A stretch of DNA of 26,956 nucleotides. Source: a virus. Location of the stretch: positions 1 through 26,956 of IMG/VR virus record IMGVR_UViG_3300032235_000390; one strand, written 5' to 3'. Under the pieces are notes generated by a model, which was not told the DNA's origin, searched no databases, and saw only the letters and a program-made list of their open reading frames with translations. The position numbers and the translations under genes were made by a program. Each line of letters opens with the position of its first letter. The stretch's first letter is position 1. Positions 3,431 through 26,956 of the stretch are shown piece after piece.

Positions 3431-3456
3431 ATACCATATTACAACAGGCCGAGCAA
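3428..3456 (-). promoter_or_regulatory. Extended -10 sigma70-type promoter for the SSB sub-operon
   Basis: On the minus strand a TATAAT box (3428-3433) is preceded by TGG (3434-3436), which gives an extended -10 element TGGTATAAT. A weak -35 match TTGCTC lies 17 bases further upstream (3451-3456), inside the 3' end of the SNF2 helicase gene. Transcription would start near 3421 and run into the gene starting at 3405. The 12 bases ATATGGTATAAT recur exactly at the promoter near 18840. Confidence 0.6.
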
Positions 3457-5172
3457 TGACTCGGCATTTTTGGTGTCAATGCTCTCGCGCACGAATTCCG
3501 ATACGTTCTTTTTGCCTTTGAGCGCCTCCAGAATCGCACCGTCCACCGATTTTTCCATCACCAAATCGATATACGTCACTGACTTGGTCTGACCGATGCG
3601 GTGCGCCCGATCTTCGGACTGGTCGCGCTCGACATAGTTAAACGAATTCGAATAATACACCACCAATTCGGCAGCGGTCATATTCAGTCCGGTGCCGCCC
3701 GTTGATGCGTTTCCGACCAAGAATCGCGCACGCTTAGTCTGGAACTTCTCCTGCACATTGATGTCCCGATCAGCCTCGGACACCTGACCATAAATCTGCA
3801 CGATCTGATCCGGGCCATACTTTGCGGCCAATGCCTCAGTCACCATGTGAATCTCTTCGATGAATCGGCACCAAATGATGGTCGACACTTGGTACTCCTC
3901 GGTGATCAAGAGCAGCTCCTCTATCTTCGGATTTTTACCCGGGATTCGCGAGTGTTCGAACTTGGCTTTGTTATAGATATCGGGATTTCTTTCAAACGTA
4001 ACGACACCGCCGCATACTTCTTGGAGTCGTAACATTCTCTCCAGCACCGTATTGACTGTGAGTCCTCGATCCCCCATGACTGTACGGTTTTTCTTAACAA
4101 GGTCGCGATACAGCTCTTTTTGCTTTTCGTTGAATTGCACTTCTCGGATTTCATATACTTTAGGCGGTAATTCGGTTAACACATCCGACTTGCGGACTTG
4201 ATACACGTACGGTGATACCAATTCGATCAATTCCTCCATATTCTGGTATCCGATGACTTCGCGACCTTCGTAACCACCCATCACCGCATACCGATTTCTG
4301 AAAGAGTAGAAGTCGCCGGTGCCGATGATGTTGTCATCTAGGTACTGGAACTGCATAAACAAGTCCATCGGCGCATTGGCTACCGGGGTGCCAGTCATGA
4401 TCAGCTTGTACTTGGCTCCCTTACCAATCTTCACCGCGTTCTTGCTGCGCACCGCGTTATGTGTCTTGATCATGTGCGCTTCATCCACGATCATGCCCGC
4501 ACGCGTGGACGTATTCACGAATCGGTCCGCATACAACACCGCTGAACCTGCAGCGAGTGATTCGGTGCCGACCACCAATATCTTCAGGCCGTCGGTCACT
4601 CGTGTATTGAACTCGTCAAACAGCTTGGGCTTCGACGTATCCAGGATTGCGACGTCATGCGGTACCGGACAGTGAATGCCGAATTCGCGTACCCAGTTCA
4701 TACGGGTTGAAAACTTGGTTAGCACTAATAACCGATCGACTTCGCCCTGCAAGAAATAGGCCGAATACAAATCGATCGCGGTCTTGGTCTTGCCGGTACC
4801 CATGTCCATGTAATACGCGAACCCCGGCTTCATCCACGACATTGATATCGCTTGCATCTGGTATGCACGGGGTTCTGTCTTGAATACGTAGTCCGATGGG
4901 AACTTGGCCACTGGTGCCAGTGATTGACGGCTCACCGAATCGCGTGCAGCCTCAAACGCTTGAAGATCCCAACAGTCTCGATTAAACGTCTCAAGCATGT
5001 ATGACGAATTCGCACGCAATGCGGGTGCGGTCCATACACGGCGTCGTGAATCCCATCGACGGTTAGGTATCGACCGGATCTTGTCAACCATCCATGGCGG
5101 CGATTCGATGATGAACCTGCCGGATTTGGGGTCGAATGTGATTCTAGTATTCGGGTGTGAAGTCTGGAGCAT
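3439..5172 (-). CDS. SNF2-family (superfamily 2) DNA helicase/translocase with N-terminal HARP-like segment
   Basis: A 577-residue ATP-dependent DNA translocase, expected to act in replication or fork remodelling. Seen directly: an N-terminal segment (about 10-60, ITFDPKSGRF and RRWDSRRRVWTAP) similar to the HARP/SMARCAL1-type substrate-recognition domain; Walker A MDMGTGKTKT at about 122-131; DEAH box VDEAH at about 229-233; motif III TGTPVAN at about 260-266; and, in the second RecA lobe near residues 490-540, the STGGTGLNM motif and the QSEDRAHRIGQ motif VI characteristic of SNF2 enzymes. The ATG at 5172 has a GAGGA Shine-Dalgarno (GAGGATAAAGTAG) and lies within the upstream primase gene, overlapping it by 29 bases. 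Length and motif order are complete, so it is probably functional. Confidence 0.95.
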   Translation of the reverse strand: MLQTSHPNTRITFDPKSGRFIIESPPWMVDKIRSIPNRRWDSRRRVWTAPALRANSSYMLETFNRDCWDLQAFEAARDSVSRQSLAPVAKFPSDYVFKTEPRAYQMQAISMSWMKPGFAYYMDMGTGKTKTAIDLYSAYFLQGEVDRLLVLTKFSTRMNWVREFGIHCPVPHDVAILDTSKPKLFDEFNTRVTDGLKILVVGTESLAAGSAVLYADRFVNTSTRAGMIVDEAHMIKTHNAVRSKNAVKIGKGAKYKLIMTGTPVANAPMDLFMQFQYLDDNIIGTGDFYSFRNRYAVMGGYEGREVIGYQNMEELIELVSPYVYQVRKSDVLTELPPKVYEIREVQFNEKQKELYRDLVKKNRTVMGDRGLTVNTVLERMLRLQEVCGGVVTFERNPDIYNKAKFEHSRIPGKNPKIEELLLITEEYQVSTIIWCRFIEEIHMVTEALAAKYGPDQIVQIYGQVSEADRDINVQEKFQTKRARFLVGNASTGGTGLNMTAAELVVYYSNSFNYVERDQSEDRAHRIGQTKSVTYIDLVMEKSVDGAILEALKGKKNVSEFVRESIDTKNAESLLGLL

Positions 5173-6703
5173 CTACTTTATCCTCTAAGTCACCGCTGAT
5201 CGGTGCGTACCATACATTCATCGGATGATTCTGACCCGGAATCCGCATCTTGGTGTGATTGGCACCACACTCGCGTCTCAGGGTGGTCCAGAGATCCATG
5301 CCTTGCTGTAACTCGGCCTTATTACGCTTCAAGAATTCAGAGAATGCGATACCCTTGAATACGATGCACCGGGTACCGTCGATCTCCTGCACCACCGGGA
5401 TGTTGCGAGTCAGTGCCCGCCGATCCTGCGGGTCGCGCCCGTCAGACGACAAATCGGCCTTCTGTACGAATTCGTTAAACTTCTGTGCGATAACACCCGA
5501 AGCTGATGCTTCTTTCGGAACTTCGACCACCCGCAAGTTAGGGATGAGTGGATCCAAGATCCTCTTGCGCCAAGCATCCTGCGTGATCTTCGGTATGTTG
5601 ATCTTGAGCTGTTCGAAGATGAGGGTTCCCATTGTATTAGGATCACGAAGTACAACAGTAGGAATATTAGCAATGAGCTTACCGTTAACATGAAGTCCCC
5701 ACCTTGGGGGATCAGATTGGTATTCAATAAGATCAGTAAACTGAGGCAGAGAATCATATGCTTCCAAGGCTTTAGCTTCATCGGACGTGATCCCATATTC
5801 ACGAGTTACACACACCTTGCGATCGCATAGCGATTTACAAGGCTCTTCTCCGCACTTGTACTGGTAATCACGCCGAGATGCCGACCGAATCACCTTGCGA
5901 GCTTCCTGATTGCCCAGCGGTCGGTCGAACATGGTCTTGTTCAGAGCCATCGCGTCGTCGAAGAACGTCTCCGGGTGCGCTCTCTTGAGGTAAATCACCA
6001 CGTTGTACATAGCTTCGTTGCGGGCACCGGATTCAACGCCGGTGTGGATCATCTTCTGAATGCAGGGCGGGGCCTCCAAATGTTCCTTGCCCGCCATTTC
6101 TTGCAGCTGCTCGGCGGATATACGTTTGGACTGCGCATACTGGATGAACAGCTCGAACGATAGCTTATTACCCCCGGCGTCCAAGGCATACCGGTTGGTG
6201 TCATCGCCGCCGAAATAACACAAATTCAGCCAGTTACCGAGGGATTTTTCGCCGGATTTGGTGACCACTGAATCCTGCTTCGGGAACACCTCGACCTTGT
6301 GCGGGATCTGGAGCATGTCGCGCCACGAGGCCAGCATTCGAATGACGGTCTTGGCCGGTAGCCACTCCGACCCAAACAGGTAGCAGTGTGCACCCCCGGA
6401 TTTGGATCGGCACACCACCAGCGGCAGTCGATGTCGCTCGATCTTTTCCGCCAGACCGACCAAGTCTACATCTTTCGACCGATCGTCGTGGTTATCCACG
6501 TCCAAGGCACCAAACATTACCGTGCCACCGTCCGAAATCGGCACTATACCCAGTCCAGTACCACCCGTGACATGGCTCTCGTAGTGCGCCAGAGTCACTT
6601 CACCCTTCTCGGTCACCGCCCGGTCAGTCTCGGAGTCGTATTGCCCGAAGGACCGGAGATTACCGACGAACAGGTCTGCAAAGTCTTTGATTAAGCCACT
6701 CAT
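5144..6703 (-). CDS. Archaeo-eukaryotic-type primase (AEP) with Cys-rich C-terminal part
   Basis: A 519-residue protein likely to make primers for phage DNA synthesis. The AEP catalytic core is in the first 170 residues: FGALDVDNHD carries the metal-binding Asp pair (D68 and D70), SKSGGAHCYLF (about 100-110) is the S-x-H nucleotide-binding motif, and VEVFPKQ (about 138-144) supplies the later conserved strand. A helical segment with PPCIQKMIHTG (Cys214) and a cluster of four cysteines between 284 and 298 (C-x4-C-x3-C-x4-C) follow, together suggesting a zinc or iron-sulfur site as in PriL/PriCT-type modules. The C-terminal 200 residues are of unknown function. It is the first gene after the non-coding hub. 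Its ATG has an AGAGGG ribosome binding site and it overlaps the SNF2 helicase gene by 29 bases. Confidence 0.87.
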   Translation of the reverse strand: MSGLIKDFADLFVGNLRSFGQYDSETDRAVTEKGEVTLAHYESHVTGGTGLGIVPISDGGTVMFGALDVDNHDDRSKDVDLVGLAEKIERHRLPLVVCRSKSGGAHCYLFGSEWLPAKTVIRMLASWRDMLQIPHKVEVFPKQDSVVTKSGEKSLGNWLNLCYFGGDDTNRYALDAGGNKLSFELFIQYAQSKRISAEQLQEMAGKEHLEAPPCIQKMIHTGVESGARNEAMYNVVIYLKRAHPETFFDDAMALNKTMFDRPLGNQEARKVIRSASRRDYQYKCGEEPCKSLCDRKVCVTREYGITSDEAKALEAYDSLPQFTDLIEYQSDPPRWGLHVNGKLIANIPTVVLRDPNTMGTLIFEQLKINIPKITQDAWRKRILDPLIPNLRVVEVPKEASASGVIAQKFNEFVQKADLSSDGRDPQDRRALTRNIPVVQEIDGTRCIVFKGIAFSEFLKRNKAELQQGMDLWTTLRRECGANHTKMRIPGQNHPMNVWYAPISGDLEDKVDAPDFTPEY

Positions 6704-6732
6704 TGTACCCTCTAATATGCTCTATAATCAGA

Positions 6733-6741
6733 ATTATAACA
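6733..6741 (-). promoter_or_regulatory. Extended -10 promoter element for the primase operon
   Basis: On the minus strand the sequence TGTTATAAT is a perfect TATAAT box with an upstream TG, i.e. an extended -10. No good -35 is present at 16-18 bases (TAGTCA is the 17-base candidate), as is acceptable for extended -10 promoters. The start would fall near 6726, giving a leader of about 22 bases before the ATG at 6703, just enough to contain the AGAGGG ribosome binding site. Confidence 0.55.
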
Positions 6742-6754
6742 CAGTCTAGGATAG

Positions 6755-6783
6755 TTGACTAGACCCTCGGCTTGTGATACACT
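6755..6783 (+). promoter_or_regulatory. Rightward promoter candidate pointing away from the primase
   Basis: TTGACT (6755-6760, 5 of 6 to the sigma70 -35) is followed after exactly 17 bases by TACACT (6778-6783, 4 of 6 to TATAAT), with TG at the extended -10 position (TGATACACT). A transcript starting near 6790 would read through the repeat cluster and be antisense to the virion operon. No convincing coding sequence follows, so a short RNA or transcription through an origin is the likelier role if the site is active. Confidence 0.4.
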
Positions 6784-6836
6784 ACATCCAGTCGGTGATC
6801 CGTGCAATGCGGAATTGTTATTTTCAAATCGACAAC

Positions 6837-7122
6837 GTTTGTATCCGGTGTTCCATCTCAATGGAACATATCATGGAACGGCGAAGAATCAAGAACGACG
6901 CGGCCTCTGGGGCAGTTGTATCCGCTGTTCCACACGCATGACCCCCTATTCCTGTCGCAAGCCGTTGACAGAACATGTCCAGACGGCTGGAACGGTATAT
7001 ACAACGGATACAAACTTCCCGAATATGCTCTCATATGTGCGCGTGTTCGACGCTTCGACGTAAGTGAACACTAACTCGGCTGTTCCATGAGCCGTTCCAT
7101 CTGACCCCTAGTGATGGAACAG
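6837..7122. repeat. Iteron-like cluster of eight TGGAAC/GTTCCA motifs
   Basis: Copies read GTTCCA at 6850-6855, 6927-6932, 7082-7087 and 7094-7099, and TGGAAC at 6862-6867, 6874-6879, 6988-6993 and 7115-7120. Successive copies 6850/6862/6874 and 7082/7094 are exactly 12 bases apart. Five of the eight read as the longer ATGGAAC/GTTCCAT (those at 6850, 6862, 6874, 7082 and 7094), and the copy at 7115 is also ATGGAAC. Two copies belong to a longer direct repeat, TTGTATCCG-S-TGTTCCA (6839-6855 and 6916-6932, 16 of 17 identical). An inverted CGGATACAAAC (7005-7015) mirrors GTTTGTATCCG at 6837-6847. By chance about 0.14 copies of the hexamer would be expected in 280 bases on both strands. Confidence 0.75.
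6849..6868. promoter_or_regulatory. Perfect inverted repeat TGTTCCAT-N4-ATGGAACA
   Basis: Two 8-base arms that are exact reverse complements flank CTCA. This is the tightest symmetric site in the hub and fits a dimeric DNA-binding protein. A wider version with 9-base arms, CTGTTCCAT and ATGGAACAG, is found at 7080-7088 and 7114-7122. Confidence 0.6.
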
Positions 7123-7156
7123 ACTTATTCGAATGTTCGGACGAATAGGTGGCGTA

Positions 7157-7201
7157 CATAAAAAGATGCCTCCGGGACCGCACGGGCAGTACCTCGGAGG
7201 C
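7157..7201 (-). terminator. Rho-independent terminator of the virion operon
   Basis: Read on the minus strand, GCCTCCG (7201-7195) pairs with CGGAGGC (7174-7168), and the hairpin is followed by ATCTTTTTATG with five consecutive T (7164-7160). It lies 34 bases after the stop codon of the transglycosylase gene, the last gene of the virion module. On the plus strand no T-run follows, so it acts in the minus direction only. Confidence 0.85.
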
Positions 7202-7234
7202 CGAAGAGAGAGATGGTCGCTACTAATATAGCTA

Positions 7235-8710
7235 CTACTGCATCGGAGGCAAGGAGAAGCCTCCCGTCGCGCCTCTAGACTTTTGCAGATTCGATTGATA
7301 CCTCTGCTCAGTCTGCTTCAGATCCTGCAGAATAGTTGCCGGGATGCTGACGGCTGGTGATTCGAGGGTCGGGCGACCCTGGCTGCGTGTATAATCCATG
7401 AGGGCAGTGGCAACCGGCCCGGCGACCGACATCGCTAATCCGGGTGGTCCAAAACCCGGTGCGATCCGGGGTAGCATGGTCATCGCCGAACCCAAGGCAC
7501 CGGTACCCATTCCCACTGCTCCGGGGACATCACCCTGCCGAGCGCGTTCAGCGGCTTCTGCAGCTTGAGCACCCATCGACATGCCACCCAGAGTGCTAGT
7601 CATCAGCGGACTGCGGCTCATGACATTGGCGACCCTTTGGCCCATCGAGGGCTTCGGGGGTTCGACCGGAGGGATCGGTACTCGGCGAGCGCCGCGAGGG
7701 CCACCACCTGCCGATTCGGGCAGTAGTAGATCCGCACGTTCTGGTGTCATCTTGTACCCGGGACCGATTTTGGCTTCCGCTTCGCGAACCTGACGGGCTA
7801 CATCCCAAGATCCGCCCGGACCCTTCGACATATCCGCTGCACGTGCCGCATCAAAATCGGTCAGACCGAACTGCTTTGCATAGTTAAACGTGCCTTGGCC
7901 ACCCGCCGGTGTCCGAGTGACCGGGCCTCGCGGAGGGGGCATGCCGCCTTGACTCGGAGCCGCTGAAGGCGCACCCGGAGCACCGGCAGGCGGGGGTGGT
8001 GCACCCAAGCGTTCCAGAGCGGTCAGGCCACCGGAAATCGCCGGTTTGACTGTCTGGTAGGCACCGAGTGATCCACCGATCATCGTGCCCGGAATAGCAC
8101 CCGCCGCCATCGCGGATGGGGTGAATCCCAGTTTCGGGCCACCGGCTTCCTCGGGCGGGCTGGCGATAGGATCAGCCTTCCAAGTCTCATCGGCGCTGAC
8201 CGGAACTGGGCCAGCGTCTGGATACGGGGCATCGGCGGTGGGTGCAGAAGCTGAGGGTGCGGTTCCTGTCTCTCCTACAGGCGTTAGGATGCCACCGGAC
8301 ATACGATTGACCATATCCACGTATTCGATCGTCTTGTCACCGATATCCGCCGGATCACCAGTCTTGAAGAATTTCGCATCTGGACCCATGTGGTACGCGG
8401 CCACCACCTTGGTCAAATCCGAACCAATGTTCTTGTGCTCGGTCAGGCGATTTAGGAAGGTGATACCGCCACGAATATTCTCTTTTAGATCCCGGGGGTT
8501 TACCTTCATGTCTTTTGCGGTTCCGGGCATGAGCTGCATCACCCCCATCGCGCCCGCTCCCGAATCCTTGACATTCGGGTTAAAGCGGCTCTCGACATAC
8601 GCGATTGACAACGCCAGATCCGGGTTCACCCCCTGTGATTCTGCCTCTTTGATGATCATCTCCGCGACCATTAGTTGGTCGTCGGAAAGCTTCGAGACGT
8701 CGAATTTCAT
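7235..8710 (-). CDS. Virion-associated protein with N-terminal lytic transglycosylase (SLT) domain
   Basis: A 491-residue protein. Residues about 15-135 form an SLT-type lysozyme-like domain that cleaves peptidoglycan glycan strands: the catalytic Glu is E40 in AYVESRFNP, followed by GAMGVMQLMPGTA (about 54-66) and VAAYHMGP (about 103-110), the three standard motifs of the family. The rest (about 140-491) is Pro/Gly/Ala-rich with low complexity and no recognised fold. The gene is the last in the virion module and the terminator follows its stop. The start has a GGAG ribosome binding site and overlaps the upstream gene by ATGA. Its place among large internal-type proteins suggests that it is packaged and locally opens the wall during DNA entry, like the SLT part of T7 gp16, rather than acting as the endolysin. 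Confidence 0.88.
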   Translation of the reverse strand: MKFDVSKLSDDQLMVAEMIIKEAESQGVNPDLALSIAYVESRFNPNVKDSGAGAMGVMQLMPGTAKDMKVNPRDLKENIRGGITFLNRLTEHKNIGSDLTKVVAAYHMGPDAKFFKTGDPADIGDKTIEYVDMVNRMSGGILTPVGETGTAPSASAPTADAPYPDAGPVPVSADETWKADPIASPPEEAGGPKLGFTPSAMAAGAIPGTMIGGSLGAYQTVKPAISGGLTALERLGAPPPPAGAPGAPSAAPSQGGMPPPRGPVTRTPAGGQGTFNYAKQFGLTDFDAARAADMSKGPGGSWDVARQVREAEAKIGPGYKMTPERADLLLPESAGGGPRGARRVPIPPVEPPKPSMGQRVANVMSRSPLMTSTLGGMSMGAQAAEAAERARQGDVPGAVGMGTGALGSAMTMLPRIAPGFGPPGLAMSVAGPVATALMDYTRSQGRPTLESPAVSIPATILQDLKQTEQRYQSNLQKSRGATGGFSLPPMQ

Positions 8711-20446: not shown

Positions 20447-21053
20447 AATGATGCTCCCTATCTTCCAGTCCTATGTACCCGCCGTTAATAGCCTTGGTCA
20501 GGCCCTTGAAATCGTTCGCGTCCACGAATCGGTTCAAGCGGTTGGTCTCCCAGTACCAGCACGCCGACTGCGCGGCACCCTCAAAAGTTCCGAGGTAGGC
20601 CGGTACGTCATTGATGTTTATTTCAAGGCTATCTGCAAATGCTTGGTAATTATTACGCCCAGTGAGCTGAATGAGACCGCGACCGCAATAGCGGAACCCA
20701 TCACCGCTAGACTCGTCACCATTACCCATTCGATTGGCATATACTCGGTTTGCAATTTTTTCAGGCTTTCTTTCGTATTGCGCAGCGATTTCATCGGTTT
20801 TAAAGTAGTTAGGAAAGATCCGGCGGAGGCCCGCCGCTTTATAATTCAGATTCTCAGTCAGCCACGTGAAACCACCCGACTCGTGACCGCATTGTGCCAG
20901 AAATGCCGCAATCCGTTTAGATGTGTTTATATCGTATTCTTCAACGAGCGATTTGCCACCAAATTCCTCTTGTGGTCCGAACAGCGCCGCGTACCACTGC
21001 TCAATATACCGGTTCTTGGGAAGAAATTTCCTGAGTTGTGCTTGAGTGATCAT
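20400..21053 (-). CDS. Endolysin, glycoside hydrolase family 19 (chitinase-like muramidase)
   Basis: A 217-residue peptidoglycan hydrolase. The family 19 signature is complete: FLAQCGHESGGF with the catalytic acid Glu58, YANRMGNGDESSGDGFRYCGRGLIQLTGRNNY (second acidic residues near 113-114), and a C-terminal CWYWETNRLN followed by ANDFKGLTKAINGGYIGLEDR. There is no signal peptide or wall-binding domain, so export depends on the holin. Length is typical of single-domain GH19 phage endolysins. It overlaps the upstream membrane-protein gene by ATGA and the downstream lipoprotein gene by 47 bases. Confidence 0.95.
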   Translation of the reverse strand: MITQAQLRKFLPKNRYIEQWYAALFGPQEEFGGKSLVEEYDINTSKRIAAFLAQCGHESGGFTWLTENLNYKAAGLRRIFPNYFKTDEIAAQYERKPEKIANRVYANRMGNGDESSGDGFRYCGRGLIQLTGRNNYQAFADSLEININDVPAYLGTFEGAAQSACWYWETNRLNRFVDANDFKGLTKAINGGYIGLEDREHHYEMALNMLDTGSRLA

Positions 21054-21262
21054 TGCCCGTACATCCTTTCAATCTGTATTTCTTTGCGCAGCTCTCGCAT
21101 CTTCCTGACCTCTTGCACCGCCGCTTGGGTGGCATAGTACATGTCGTAGTACATAAAAGCCAACACAGGCATCACAATAAAGAACATCAATACTACCGCC
21201 AGCACGACAGTAATCAATGACCAAGGGACGTTCTCGTAATCATGCTTCTTGTCGTTAGCCAC
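21050..21262 (-). CDS. Small one-helix membrane protein upstream of the endolysin
   Basis: With the GTG at 21262 it is a 70-residue protein: VANDKKHDYENVPWSL, then a membrane helix (LITVVLAVVLMFFIVMPVLAFMYY), then a charged helix ending RKEIQIERMYGQ. The frame is open further upstream to an ATG at 21355 (101 residues). However, those extra 31 residues (low-complexity Asn/Gly/Ser) overlap a clearly coding membrane segment of the preceding gene, and no Shine-Dalgarno precedes that ATG; an ATG at 21280 is another option. I prefer the short form, which still overlaps the preceding gene by 49 bases, but the start is uncertain. A single helix next to the endolysin could act as a holin or holin regulator. 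Confidence 0.7.
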   Translation of the reverse strand: MANDKKHDYENVPWSLITVVLAVVLMFFIVMPVLAFMYYDMYYATQAAVQEVRKMRELRKEIQIERMYGQ

Positions 21263-21905: not shown

Positions 21906-21911
21906 CCTCCT
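21906..21911 (-). promoter_or_regulatory. Perfect Shine-Dalgarno AGGAGG that selects the AUU start
   Basis: AGGAGG on the minus strand overlaps the TAG stop of the LamG gene and sits 5 bases before the ATT codon at 21900. The only other nearby start, TTG at 21899, gives MTR and a stop. The site therefore argues that ATT is used for initiation. Confidence 0.65.
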
Positions 21912-24900
21912 ACTGTAGCTGCAGCGCCGAGGTCGGCGGGACGAAGTTAGCGGTGTAACGGGCGAAGCGGGCGATACGAAAGTCGTCAACAAACCCGTTG
22001 AAATAGTGTATTGCCGTTGAGTTTCGCCCCATGTAAAAACGTGAATCGCTATACCAATTTATCGCGTTAGTACCAATGGTTGACGGTGTTCCAACAGAAG
22101 TTCCGTTTACATATAAGCTAATAGTCGTTCCGTTCCTAACAAGGGCAACGTGATACCAAGTAGTTGCAGCAATGGTGGCGTCTACGGCGTATTGTGTTCC
22201 ACCAACCCAGAGTGCACCTCTCAAAGTGTTAGCGCTTACAAGATACAACTGCCATGAATAGTTCGACCCCGAACTTCCGTTGGTAACTTGGGCAACGATT
22301 TGCGGGTTTGTAGATACGTTATTAAAGTACACCCAACCTTCAATAGTAAGGTTTCCAGCACCAAAACTTCCAGAAGGGTCTGGGGGCCCGATCAAATAAC
22401 TTGTTGACCCATCAAACGCAATACTCGACCCACCGAACCGACTCTGTGCCGTACTGATCTGCGCGTTTCCTACAGTCTCAAGGTCGCTCTTTGCTGTAGC
22501 GTCAATGATGCCAGCGTTGGTGAAGTTAGTTAATAAATACGTTCCAGAGATTGGGGTCGGTGGTGCTGTCGGCGGTGTAAATGCAGCGGTATAAACAGCA
22601 TCCCCCGTCACCATCCGTGCACCAGCTACATACCCAAGTATTCTTCCGTCCACAGGGTTTGAATCAGAACCAATGTTGACTCTTGTGTAAGCCGTGCCAA
22701 AATTTCCAGAATCGGTTTGAGTGTTCACTAATGCGCCATTGACAAATAATCGGAACGTGCTACCTTGTCTTGTGACTGCGATATGATTCCAACAGTTTAA
22801 AAAGATCGTACCACCGCTAACACCAGAGGAAAAACCGGTCGCTGGGATAAATGTGTTGTTATTAACAAAATAGTAGTTAGCACTCGTACTATTTCCCGAT
22901 GTTTTATTTGCACGGATCATAAGCTGACTACTGGTTCCACCAAACGATATTAGTGGGGCACCATAAGTTCCTTCATTGAAACTAGCCCAATATCCCCAAG
23001 CCTCTATGCAGAAATTTGAAGTGCCAAGGGTAAGCGTAGGAGACATTGATGCATTACTTAACCAGTCCCCGGTGCCATCGAAGTATCCACTACCACCTAC
23101 TGCAGCCGCGTTATACGGGATCGTAGGCGCGAACGGGCTGAAGGGTAAGACAGATGTATTTCCGTTAACGGTGAGCGGAAAAGTGTTGGTGCTGTTATCA
23201 ACAAATCGGTTACTCTGGCACGTCAGTAGGCGGGTGTTAGTAATCGCTGTCAAAGGCGCTGTTGGCACAGTAATAGTCGCCTGAGCCGGGTCGTAAACTG
23301 CCGTACCTGCAACAAATCGGATTTGAGACATAAAACCTGTAAATGGCCCTACCCCCGCAAAGGTAGCACCTATTGAAGCAGCGCCTGTCGTCGTAAACGC
23401 GTTAGACACCGTTCCATTTGCCACTCTAGTACCATTTAGAAAGATACTAGTTTGGTTCGTACCAGTCCCGCTGCGACAGATGGCGATGTGGTTCCAGGAA
23501 TTTAATGTCGGCAACGTGGTTGTGGTTAGTAACCACGCTACCGAGAAATTAGCCAAGCCCCAAGATGTAGTTCCATTAAATCCGACCTGAATTCCGTCAC
23601 TGACATTTACTGCAAAATAATTCGTACTATTTCCTGCGGTAGTTGGGTATACCCACATTTCAATCGTAAATACAGATCCAGCAGCAAATTGTGAACTAGT
23701 AGCAGCAGTAAGATAATCTCCTGTCCCATCAAAAAAATTACTCCACCCCGTCTGACTGAACGGCGAGAACGTACCCTGCGTCGTGTTGCCGTTACGGGCG
23801 ATCAGGAAGTTGTTGCTTGACGAGTCTAGGAACGAGTTGTTGTTCGATGACTGCGAGTTTTGCAGGATGAGTAGGGCTGTAGAAGTGCCCGTAATCGCCG
23901 AGATATTTGTCCCAGCAGACTGCGTTGCCCCTAACGGTGCAGTAGGCACAGTGAACGCGCCGGTGTAAACCGCAGTACCATTTACAACTCGCACATTTGA
24001 TACATAGCCATTAACCGCATCACCAGTTGTGCTGCCGCCAACGTAAATCCCGCTGGTAGAAGTGTAATTAGATGTTACGCCTGTTTTTAATGTTGTAGCA
24101 GCACCGTTTACATATCCTGTAATGGTCGAGCCGTTTCTAACAACTGCAACGTGATACCACTGGTTAAGCGCAGCCGTCCCACCAAACGCAGTAGCATTGT
24201 TGATATTCCAACTAGAACCATTATCGCTTGAATAAAACGAAAAACCTGTAGTGTCAATCGCAATAACAACTGGCACAAAAGCATTAGTTGATGTGCTTTG
24301 ACGCATTCCCAATACTTGCCCAAATGCGGGTTTTGCGTTGAGATATACCCAGCACTCAAACGTCCAGTTATTTGTTCCTAGTACAGCAGCACTTGTCGGA
24401 GTGTTAATGTAATCCGACGTTCCATCAAAATACCCCGACCCAGAGTTCGGGAAGGTCGTCAAAGAGAACGGTGATAGGTTAGCTGCGCGGGCATCTCCAC
24501 TAACGGTGATTGCAAAATTGTTCGTGCTTACGTCCGTAATCCATGTCGGCAGACCTGTTGGGCTATTACCCGATAACATCAACGTCGTTAGGTTAAAGTA
24601 CGGGTCGTAGATAGGCCACAGGCGGTTAGCCGTGAAGTACTGCGCTTGATCTAATGTCCACACCCCGGGAGCCGCTGCGCCATACGCCGGGTTAAATCCA
24701 GCGATGTTCGAGGGCACCATACTTCTGGTGTTGCCGTTTGTAGGGGCGTTGTAGAAGTAATAGCTTGACGGGAAAGGCGTGAAGGTGCTGACCGCTGAAT
24801 TGCCAAAAACGGTAAAGGTTAAGTTACTGCTGCTCTGATCTATTATTGTCGGGGAGTTGCAGGTTAGTAGACTTGCGTTCCAACTTGGTGAAGAGCCAGC

Positions 24901-25455
24901 TATAGAAGAACGGAATAATTGGGTCGGCGGCGTGAACGTCGTGGTGTAAAGTGCAGTACCGATAACCACACGCACATTCGACATGTAGCCATTAAAAAAG
25001 AAACTACCCGAATTGTTGCCACCGATCCAAAATTGCTGCCCTGTCAGAGAGGTGCTGTTGGACACCGATTGAGCTTGCACACCGTTCACGAACAAACGCA
25101 GTGTCCCCGACGCACGACAAAGCGCCAAGTGCTGCCAAGTATTCGCTACCACTGCTGAAGTGGCGTTTAGTGTTACTGAGCCGCCGGGACTTAACCAGAA
25201 CTCGATAGCCGTACCGTTCTGATAAAGCGACCAACCACCAGTCGTCGCCGAATAATTTTCGCTTGAGACTAATGCCCTGTATGCGCTGGACGTGTTGATG
25301 GGCAACATCCAGAATTCAATCGTAAAATCACCTGCACCCAAGACATTGCTGACTGATGAAGAGGATACTATGTAATCTCCACTTCCATCAAACACTACAG
25401 AATATCCTGCGGGCGCTGCCGCAGTTACTAGGCCACCGGGATATTTGTCACTCAT
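21910..25455 (-). CDS. Multi-domain LamG/ConA-like tail or fibre protein
   Basis: A 1181-residue protein, probably a receptor- or glycan-binding appendage. Five LamG-like jellyroll units are visible, each running from FDG(S/T)xDY(I/L) through a W(Y/Q/N)H(V/L/I)A strand, an (F/Y)VNG strand and an (F/V)NGY(M/V)SNVRVV-like strand to a VYTxxFTPPTAPL-like end. They lie at about 20-180, 340-510, 570-740, 800-970 and 1010-1175. Linkers between units repeat the pattern LL..S...D.S.N.F...GN....FSPF. Composition is almost free of Lys. The N-terminus MSDKYPGGLVTAAAPAGYS has no signal peptide. A segment APGVWTLDQAQY (about 262-273), which I know from the N-terminus of related phage proteins, is internal here, after domain 1. 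AAGGGA precedes the ATG; 9 bases separate it from the upstream paralogue. Confidence 0.85.
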   Translation of the reverse strand: MSDKYPGGLVTAAAPAGYSVVFDGSGDYIVSSSSVSNVLGAGDFTIEFWMLPINTSSAYRALVSSENYSATTGGWSLYQNGTAIEFWLSPGGSVTLNATSAVVANTWQHLALCRASGTLRLFVNGVQAQSVSNSTSLTGQQFWIGGNNSGSFFFNGYMSNVRVVIGTALYTTTFTPPTQLFRSSIAGSSPSWNASLLTCNSPTIIDQSSSNLTFTVFGNSAVSTFTPFPSSYYFYNAPTNGNTRSMVPSNIAGFNPAYGAAAPGVWTLDQAQYFTANRLWPIYDPYFNLTTLMLSGNSPTGLPTWITDVSTNNFAITVSGDARAANLSPFSLTTFPNSGSGYFDGTSDYINTPTSAAVLGTNNWTFECWVYLNAKPAFGQVLGMRQSTSTNAFVPVVIAIDTTGFSFYSSDNGSSWNINNATAFGGTAALNQWYHVAVVRNGSTITGYVNGAATTLKTGVTSNYTSTSGIYVGGSTTGDAVNGYVSNVRVVNGTAVYTGAFTVPTAPLGATQSAGTNISAITGTSTALLILQNSQSSNNNSFLDSSSNNFLIARNGNTTQGTFSPFSQTGWSNFFDGTGDYLTAATSSQFAAGSVFTIEMWVYPTTAGNSTNYFAVNVSDGIQVGFNGTTSWGLANFSVAWLLTTTTLPTLNSWNHIAICRSGTGTNQTSIFLNGTRVANGTVSNAFTTTGAASIGATFAGVGPFTGFMSQIRFVAGTAVYDPAQATITVPTAPLTAITNTRLLTCQSNRFVDNSTNTFPLTVNGNTSVLPFSPFAPTIPYNAAAVGGSGYFDGTGDWLSNASMSPTLTLGTSNFCIEAWGYWASFNEGTYGAPLISFGGTSSQLMIRANKTSGNSTSANYYFVNNNTFIPATGFSSGVSGGTIFLNCWNHIAVTRQGSTFRLFVNGALVNTQTDSGNFGTAYTRVNIGSDSNPVDGRILGYVAGARMVTGDAVYTAAFTPPTAPPTPISGTYLLTNFTNAGIIDATAKSDLETVGNAQISTAQSRFGGSSIAFDGSTSYLIGPPDPSGSFGAGNLTIEGWVYFNNVSTNPQIVAQVTNGSSGSNYSWQLYLVSANTLRGALWVGGTQYAVDATIAATTWYHVALVRNGTTISLYVNGTSVGTPSTIGTNAINWYSDSRFYMGRNSTAIHYFNGFVDDFRIARFARYTANFVPPTSALQLQ
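24971..25117. repeat. DNA-level repeat shared by the two LamG genes, copy 1
   Basis: This 147-base stretch within LamG unit 1 of the 1181-residue protein aligns without gaps to 26810-26956 in the neighbouring LamG gene, 1839 bases away, at roughly 88 percent identity by hand count. Both encode the LRLFVNGV to NGYMSNVRVVIGTA part of the fold. Similarity in the third codon positions shows recent duplication or recombination. Confidence 0.75.
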
Positions 25456-25464
25456 GTCGTTCCC

Positions 25465-26956
25465 TTATTGTCTCGGCAGTGCCACTTGGGGCGGGGTGAA
25501 ATTAGCTACATAGCGGGCCAGTCCTTTGGTCACGCGCAGATCATCGATGTAACCGTTGAAGTAACCATTCGCCCCAAAACCGATTCTCAAAGTATTACTT
25601 GTGAAGTTCTGTGAAGAGGTGACGACAAACGGCGTACCTTCTAAAATTCCATTCAAATAAAGTCTCATCGTCGTTCCACCGCGAACCGCCGCCAAGTGAT
25701 ACCAAACACCATTCACCAGCGTTGTGGTGTTACTGGTATAAACGGTCCCGGATGTGCCCCAATTGATCTTCGAAGTGGAAGTGAAAATGTCAAATCCAGC
25801 ATTTGCGGTATCCGGATTTCTTAAATCAAACAGAGCAGCGGTACTGGATGCGGAATTGCAGAAAAACCAGAATTCGATCGTAAAATCACCTTGATCGAAA
25901 GCAAAATTCTGCGATGAAGGGAACTGTAAATTATCCCCAGTGCCATCAAAAAACATCGATCCCGAGCCATACTTCACGACATTGGTGCTAACTTGTGCAT
26001 TCCCCACCGTCTCTACTACGTTGTCCATCGTGCCATCGATGATTCCGGCATTGGTGAAGTTGAGGAGAAGCTGTGTGTTTGTGATGGCGGTGGGCGGTGC
26101 TGTTGGAATAGTTAATGTCGTTAGTGTCGGATCGTACACAGATGACCCTTTAACCGACCGAAGACCAGAAATATATCCCGGGAAAAATTGATCGTTCGCA
26201 GGTCTTCTTCCAATACTAAAAGCGTCAGTAGATGAAAAATTATTCGGCGTTCCACTAGTTGATGCTCGTCTTACACCATTAATAAACAATGCGGAATTAT
26301 TTCCAGAACGACAATTAACGATATGTTGCCAAGAATTCCCAACTATAGTTCCGGCTGCACTGTCTAAAAATGCGGTATCCCAACTACTAACTCTAATTGA
26401 GTTTCCATTTCTTATGAATATTCCGATTTGCGAATTCCCGCCACCGCTTGCAAAGTTTGCATACAGCGTTTGATCGCCAGATAGCGCAGTCGGGTAAATC
26501 CACATCTCAATGCAAAAATCGCCAGTACCAAAAGCTAGTGCTGATGTACTTGGAACAGTAAGAAAATCCCCACTCCCATCAAAGTACCCACTACCACCTA
26601 CTGTAGCCGCGCTATACGGTATCGTAGGTAAGAATGGGCTGAAGGGTTGGATGGATGGGTTGCCGTTGACAGTAATTGCGTTTGCTACGCTGCTGTTATC
26701 TACAAATCGATTGGATTGGCAAGTTAAAAGACTTGTTCCTAATATTGCTGTTAGTGCTGCTGTTGGAGGCGTAAACGCAGTAGTGTAAATTGCTGTTCCT
26801 ATGACAACACGTACATTTGACATGTAGCCATTGAAAAAGAAACTACCAGAATTGTTGCCGCCAAGCCAAAATTGCTGACCTGTAAGCGACGTACTGTTTG
26901 CCACCGATTGAACTTGCACACCGTTCACAAACAAACGCAGTGTTCCAGACGCACGA
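25465..26956 (-). CDS. Paralogous LamG/ConA-like tail or fibre protein, 5' end outside the window
   Basis: An open frame that reaches the right edge without a start; the visible 497 codons are the C-terminal part. It begins inside a LamG unit (RASGTLRLFVNGVQVQSVANS), followed by two complete units beginning SGYFDGSGDFLTVP and MFFDGTGDNLQFP, with the same linker LLTCQSNRFVDNSSVAN and the same type of ending (FNGYIDDLRVTKGLARYVANF). The ending matches the C-terminus of the downstream LamG protein, so the two share both domain type and terminal unit. A TTG at 26934 is not a real start, since the same LamG strand continues upstream of it. It is probably a virion appendage protein acting together with, or as an alternative to, its neighbour. 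The adjacent stop and start (9 bases apart) indicate co-transcription. Confidence 0.83.
   Translation of the reverse strand, partial: RASGTLRLFVNGVQVQSVANSTSLTGQQFWLGGNNSGSFFFNGYMSNVRVVIGTAIYTTAFTPPTAALTAILGTSLLTCQSNRFVDNSSVANAITVNGNPSIQPFSPFLPTIPYSAATVGGSGYFDGSGDFLTVPSTSALAFGTGDFCIEMWIYPTALSGDQTLYANFASGGGNSQIGIFIRNGNSIRVSSWDTAFLDSAAGTIVGNSWQHIVNCRSGNNSALFINGVRRASTSGTPNNFSSTDAFSIGRRPANDQFFPGYISGLRSVKGSSVYDPTLTTLTIPTAPPTAITNTQLLLNFTNAGIIDGTMDNVVETVGNAQVSTNVVKYGSGSMFFDGTGDNLQFPSSQNFAFDQGDFTIEFWFFCNSASSTAALFDLRNPDTANAGFDIFTSTSKINWGTSGTVYTSNTTTLVNGVWYHLAAVRGGTTMRLYLNGILEGTPFVVTSSQNFTSNTLRIGFGANGYFNGYIDDLRVTKGLARYVANFTPPQVALPRQ
26810..26956. repeat. DNA-level repeat shared by the two LamG genes, copy 2
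   Basis: Counterpart of 24971-25117. The match runs off the right edge of the window, so its true length is unknown. Confidence 0.7.

Follow-up and report, generated by a model that had tools for sequence, protein, structure and literature searches.

An array of facing short repeats ahead of the primase gene is a candidate replication-initiation element in PurZ/DpoZ phages

Results

A dense repeat array lies in the non-coding gap ahead of the primase operon

The window, i.e. the whole stretch of DNA analysed, is a 26,956-bp viral contig (G000); all of its main genes are encoded by the minus strand. A 531-base gap without a credible gene separates the SLT transglycosylase gene (7235-8710) from a gene for an AEP (TOTE-type) primase of phrog_21866 (5144-6703, minus strand), followed in the primase operon by a gene encoding an SNF2-family helicase (3439-5172, minus strand). 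On the virion side, the gap contains a terminator-like hairpin followed by TCTTTTT (7159-7201, minus strand; fold z = -3.9), in agreement with the location between a virion terminator and the primase operon proposed by a previous sequence-only reading. On the primase side, it contains the sigma-70-like promoter of the operon, TAGTCA-N17-TATAAT (6733-6761, minus strand), the TATAAT of which is retained in most relatives. The AT-rich tract described beside the repeats is indeed present (about 6712-6763), but corresponds mainly to this promoter (6761-6733). Two small plus-strand open reading frames in the gap were rejected as genes; they show no third-position bias between relatives and vary at all codon positions.

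Eight exact copies of TGGAAC/GTTCCA were found within 271 bp, at 6850-6855, 6862-6867, 6874-6879, 6927-6932, 6988-6993, 7082-7087, 7094-7099 and 7115-7120, reproducing the count reported earlier. The exact 12-base steps were also recovered (6850-6862-6874 and 7082-7094). The hexamer occurs 27 times in the whole window against 14 expected, 8 of these copies being at 6850-7120. In 1000 dinucleotide shuffles of 6704-7234, it was found 0.25 times on average and 3 times at most. The cluster also survives a look-elsewhere test, since the best 6-mer of any sequence per 300 bp never reached 8 copies, with a maximum of 5 in the gap shuffles and 6 in 20 shuffles of the whole window. A sister word absent from the earlier description, TGTATCC, is interleaved in the same array at three sites (6840, 6917 and 7006). 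We refer to the resulting array of 8 TGGAAC/GTTCCA and 3 TGTATCC half-sites, found in both orientations, as hub 1 (6840-7120).

The half-sites of hub 1 fall into three modules. In the promoter-proximal module (6840-6879), the sites at 6840 and 6850 point one way and those at 6862 and 6874 the other way. The middle module (6917-7012) has sites at 6917 and 6927 and at 6988 and 7006 around a core containing the imperfect dyad TGTCAACGGCTTGCGACA (6953-6970, minus-strand reading); central palindromes are better in relatives, for example TGTCGCAAGCTTGCGACA in hub 2 of G004. In the terminator-proximal module (7082-7120), the sites at 7082 and 7094 face the one at 7115. In the window, the core of hub 1 is only moderately AT-rich, with a 30-mer maximum of 67%; clear AT runs are present in the hubs of several relatives.

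The palindrome of the promoter-proximal module can fold back on itself as a hairpin (z = -2.8), which would be expected if the gap encoded a structured RNA or a regulatory leader. We consider this highly improbable: an Rfam scan of the gap returned no family at its cut-off, folding of the dyad region was not superior to that of shuffled sequence, and the layout is retained in both orientations. Furthermore, hub 1 is upstream of the primase promoter and is therefore outside the primase transcript.

The array is conserved in close relatives and its repeat word turns over between phages

The same primase was found in seven viral contigs with 71-99% identity. All 8 hexamers were present at identical spacing from the primase start in L002, L003 and L004. 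In L002 and L003 (97-99% relatives), 48 of 48 site bases were unchanged, the remaining gap being 86-89% identical. The sequence-only reading had made its proposal depend on related phages keeping these sites; the alignment showed that both hexamers and spacing are kept, and no conserved coding sequence was found, so that the absence of a gene in the gap was upheld. Hub 1 is a non-coding cluster of short repeats, beyond chance and conserved, and it adjoins replication genes; both properties are those of an iteron origin.

Beyond these close relatives, the word itself differed. In L005 (83% primase identity) and in L006 and L008 (71-72%), most sites read TGTATCCG, many of them at corresponding positions. 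The word was TGTTACAT in L010 and TGTTCCAT in L011-L017, with up to 13 copies, and more distant loci displayed TGTAGAA, TGTTACCG, TGTAGCA, GTTACTT or TGTAAT. Hub 1 of L018/G016 was weak when taken alone (p = 0.04), and no hub was seen in L019 and L023. Cultured phages were recovered by tblastn of the primase. TGGAAC[G/C] arrays were found in the same place in Salmonella phage PMBT28, Klebsiella phage VLCpiS6a, Pseudomonas phage PSA28 and Providencia phage Kokobel2. Among the Acinetobacter phages, the word was GAGCAACC in SH-Ab 15497, DMU1, AbaSI_2 and 2AB-P, GAG(A/T)AACC in phages 53 and pB23, both GAGTAACC and GGAAACC in Bhz20, and GAGGAACC in Bhz9; within this group the hub can still be aligned, with one repeat base changed in most copies (GAG-N-AACC). 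Hub words thus vary by phage (TGTTCCA, TGTATCC, TGTTACA, GAG-N-AACC and others), and judging from these alignments, TGGAAC is only the version carried by the clade of the window of a word that turns over. Most of the genomes are metagenomic and many are near-duplicates. Counts of genomes therefore overstate the independent variety, which amounts to about eight repeat words.

A second hub at the early-to-late junction carries the same word

A pattern search in longer contigs revealed a second array. This hub 2 is located at the early-to-late junction, upstream of the terminase genes, in G004, G005, PMBT28 and SH-Ab 15497 (gene neighbours were described leaving out G016, G018 and G019). The coordinates of hubs 1 and 2 are 20891-21067 and 43040-43242 in SH-Ab 15497, and 20886-20983 and 43644-43906 in PMBT28. 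Hub 2 was present in 14 of 14 genomes with a recognised hub 1 and sufficient contig reach, a count which excludes the clade of the window, whose contigs end before that position. Each of these genomes has its own word in both hubs, against a background of 0.01-0.14 copies per 600 bp. The two hubs are 12-23 kb apart. In alignments with hub 1, hub 2 was inverted in 13 genomes (in G004 as short pieces only) and in direct orientation in PMBT28, indicating that hub orientation relative to transcription is free. In G005, the stretch before each hub also contains a long hairpin with GCTA...TATAGC in its loop (L006 4440-4620; G005 48420-48570), and this inverted repeat is found near the hub in many relatives.

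The position of the hubs at both transcription-unit boundaries, where a regulator would need them, counts against an origin. With terminators and sigma-70-like promoters nearby, the hubs could be paired master operators, at which a phage regulator would switch early (primase operon) and late (terminase and virion) transcription, perhaps by looping. A regulator would also account for the coordinated change of the word. Phage lambda provides a precedent: OL and OR are paired multi-site clusters bracketing the early region, and the repressor loops between them. Lambda operators, however, overlap promoters and their repressor is phage-encoded. The nearest sites of hub 1 are 78-88 bp upstream of the primase -35 and do not overlap it, the distance between sites and TATAAT varies by genome, and hub 2 is mostly inverted. 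No repressor or integrase was found among the best 25 families per library for the early proteins of SH-Ab 15497. We therefore regard paired operators as unlikely, albeit the strongest competitor: the distance of the sites from the -35, their unconserved orientation relative to promoters and the inverted pairs make the evidence lean to an origin. The sequence-only reading had offered an iteron-type origin or a multi-site operator; the class was right.

Because hub 2 is just upstream of the terminase genes, a role in packaging, segregation or another form of genome handling was also considered, either as a terminase recognition site or through partition-like pairing of the hubs. This appears improbable, since hub 1 lies 12-23 kb away beside replication genes, the terminase types vary while the hub layout is constant, and no ParA/ParB-type gene was found among the best families for the SH-Ab 15497 early proteins.

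Facing modules may extend beyond the primase lineage

In relatives, a hub can reach about 12 half-sites, grouped into three modules that each consist of two right-facing and two left-facing sites. The layout was clearest in hub 1 of G011, with start-to-start distances of > 8 > 12 < 11 < in the first module, > 8 > 62 < 8 < in the second and > 11 > 12 < 8 < in the third, the modules being separated by 61 and 43. The pairs of the middle module flank a dyad, TGTC...GACA, an AT-rich stretch, or both. Hub 1 of the window matches this three-module arrangement after loss or replacement of certain sites.

Scanning IMG/VR for one exact module, TGTTCCAT-N4-ATGGAACA, returned 43 stretches, some of which were contigs already analysed. 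Among these, 22 were dense hubs, and 21 of the 22 had terminase, VRR nuclease or primase genes on the same stretch. The same layout of facing pairs (TTGTTCCATTGTTCCATATATATATATA ... TGGAACAATGGAAC) was seen in a clearly distinct group of AT-rich phages with only distant terminases, represented by L155, L157, L178 and probably L172, with clear AT runs in L155, L157 and L178. The architecture may therefore reach beyond the primase phage group. No hub was seen upstream of the primase in the distant primase loci L029-L087, where the order is gp32-gp33-gp34-primase-UvrD. Linkage cannot be judged fairly from this survey, as the primase is mid-operon in these loci and comes first in the hub-bearing phages. 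Whole-locus scans of the distant loci, which are short, detected no comparable two-way cluster.

Hub-bearing phages encode PurZ and DpoZ

The window ends inside the UvrD gene. Its sister G001 (99% primase identity) continues to DpoZ (798 bits, cut-off 500) and PurZ, which was the best model (E 1.9e-84) with a score slightly under the cut-off (283 against 300 bits), and also encodes a YfbR-like HD phosphohydrolase and a dATP/dGTP pyrophosphohydrolase. On the basis of their gene content, the hub-bearing phages, including SH-Ab 15497 and PMBT28, are PurZ/DpoZ phages, and the DNA of the window's own phage presumably contains 2-aminoadenine. SH-Ab 15497 is among the phages in which the dZTP pathway has been worked out (PMC12884076).

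Three further observations were made on these genomes. In G004 (L095 10315-11340 and 11294-11821), PurZ shares 71-72% identity with that of G005/G007 and only 41-45% with G006 and G008-G015, whereas the neighbouring pyrophosphohydrolase displays the opposite pattern (42% against 60-66%); these opposite patterns point to gene replacement within the Z cluster. A 65-aa gene lies between the primase and SNF2 helicase genes of most Acinetobacter phages (L133 21574-21771 in SH-Ab 15497), and is unannotated in JeffCo. Finally, two large adjacent minus-strand proteins of the window (21910-26934) have repeated stretches such as FNGYMSNVRVV.GTALYT, which look like laminin-G/concanavalin-type tail-fibre repeats.

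The primase C-terminus as a candidate reader of the hubs

Many copies of the word change together at two places 12-23 kb apart, and a trans-acting reader is the best explanation for this. We infer that the hub is read by a phage-encoded, phage-specific binder that diversifies together with its word. Common to hub-bearing genomes are the primase, the SNF2 helicase, gp32-, gp33- and gp34-like proteins, UvrD, DpoZ, PurZ and DatZ. No residue or segment of a shared protein clearly followed the repeat word. Positions that did so were in weak surplus in the N-terminus of SNF2, isolated in the primase, and present to some extent in the variable linker of the dATP/dGTP pyrophosphohydrolase, none of them convincingly. 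A winged-helix gene of G005 was rejected as the binder, being confined to G005/G007.

Sequence searches of PDB and Pfam with the primase C-terminus gave no credible match. In the AlphaFold model of the primase, the Prim-Pol domain resembles the one in CAPP (7nqf, E 4.5e-12), and the order of elements in the C-terminal region suggests a winged helix. Its best structural neighbour was SaPIbov1 Rep (E = 0.047) and SCCmec Cch was also listed (E = 0.36), neither being significant; both are iteron-origin proteins. The sequence-only reading had seen no obvious binder encoded in the window. The primase C-terminal domain, which the window does encode, is a candidate for this role and no more than that.

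Discussion

Collectively, we consider it probable, though far from assured, that the hub at 6840-7120 serves to initiate phage replication, with another origin or a helper element in hub 2. A phage-encoded initiator would bind the short half-sites as facing pairs in three modules and build a nucleoprotein complex across the central dyad or AT-rich core. The DNA would open at this core, where the primase/helicase set of the adjacent operon would be loaded. Hub 2, usually inverted, would either be an origin itself or pair with hub 1 as its helper. Binding of the hub by a phage protein, the start of replication through this binding and the role of the primase C-terminal domain as reader are inferred from evidence that is comparative throughout.

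An origin is favoured because the hub heads the primase/helicase operon, multi-site facing arrays surround a core, and the hub is duplicated in an orientation independent of transcription. Synonymous GC skew was higher in early than in late genes in 8 of 8 freshwater genomes, whereas SH-Ab 15497 had almost no such contrast and PMBT28 had the opposite one. The skew is weakly compatible with forks leaving hub 1 and was given little weight, in view of the relatedness of these genomes and the different use of early and late genes. Also counted against an origin are the moderate AT-richness of the hub core in the window, the lack of a shared protein segregating with the word and the absence from hub 1 of any DnaA box, so that it does not qualify as a host-type oriC.

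Several known systems share parts of this organisation. Phage P4 has two separated cis sites, ori1 and crr, with the same short repeats and a primase-containing reader, and an origin with a helper is likewise possible in the hub phages. P4 differs in being a small satellite whose alpha protein has a helicase domain, and the likeness may be one of organisation only. The origins of SaPI and SCCmec, where Rep and Cch helicases act on short iterons (PMC7581432), also combine short repeated words beside a replication gene with an initiator encoded by the mobile element, the SCCmec initiator working with an AEP-type primase. Unlike the hub phages, which have no such helicase, their reader is an AAA+ helicase and their origin is downstream; the hub phages have far more sites, facing modules and two hubs per genome. 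In the RepA iterons of PLE and in ICP1 Odn, both the repeat and its reader have diversified, and origin variation alters recognition (PMC8263062). The same diversification of word and reader is proposed for the hubs, although PLE has one origin with three semi-palindromic repeats of ~30 bp read by RepA, and each hub has about 8-13 half-sites of 6-8 bp. This resemblance of the private words to known iteron/initiator pairs (SaPI and SCCmec, PMC7581432; PLE, PMC8263062) also favours an origin. The SV40 core origin, with four GAGGC, an AT region and a palindrome (PMC5295021), is similar in layout only, in that a set of short sites adjoins one AT-rich and one palindromic element; its initiator is an SF3 helicase and there is no homology.

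We put forward a more specific model, which is doubtful as a whole. Z-genome phages of the phrog_21866 type would have paired, inverted, multi-module origins with the primase as initiator through its C-terminal domain; facing sites would open the strands, and word and reader would co-diversify. If so, facing sites would replace A:T-rich opening, which is less easy when A is Z, and each phage would have a private origin. Our literature search found no origin described for the PurZ/DpoZ phage group in the papers retrieved. Exact candidate sites are now named in the cultured phages SH-Ab 15497 and PMBT28, so that origin opening in 2-aminoadenine phages can be tested directly, and the Acinetobacter phages differing mainly in one repeat base (GAG-N-AACC) represent a natural series in which to find the reader and follow a change in its specificity.
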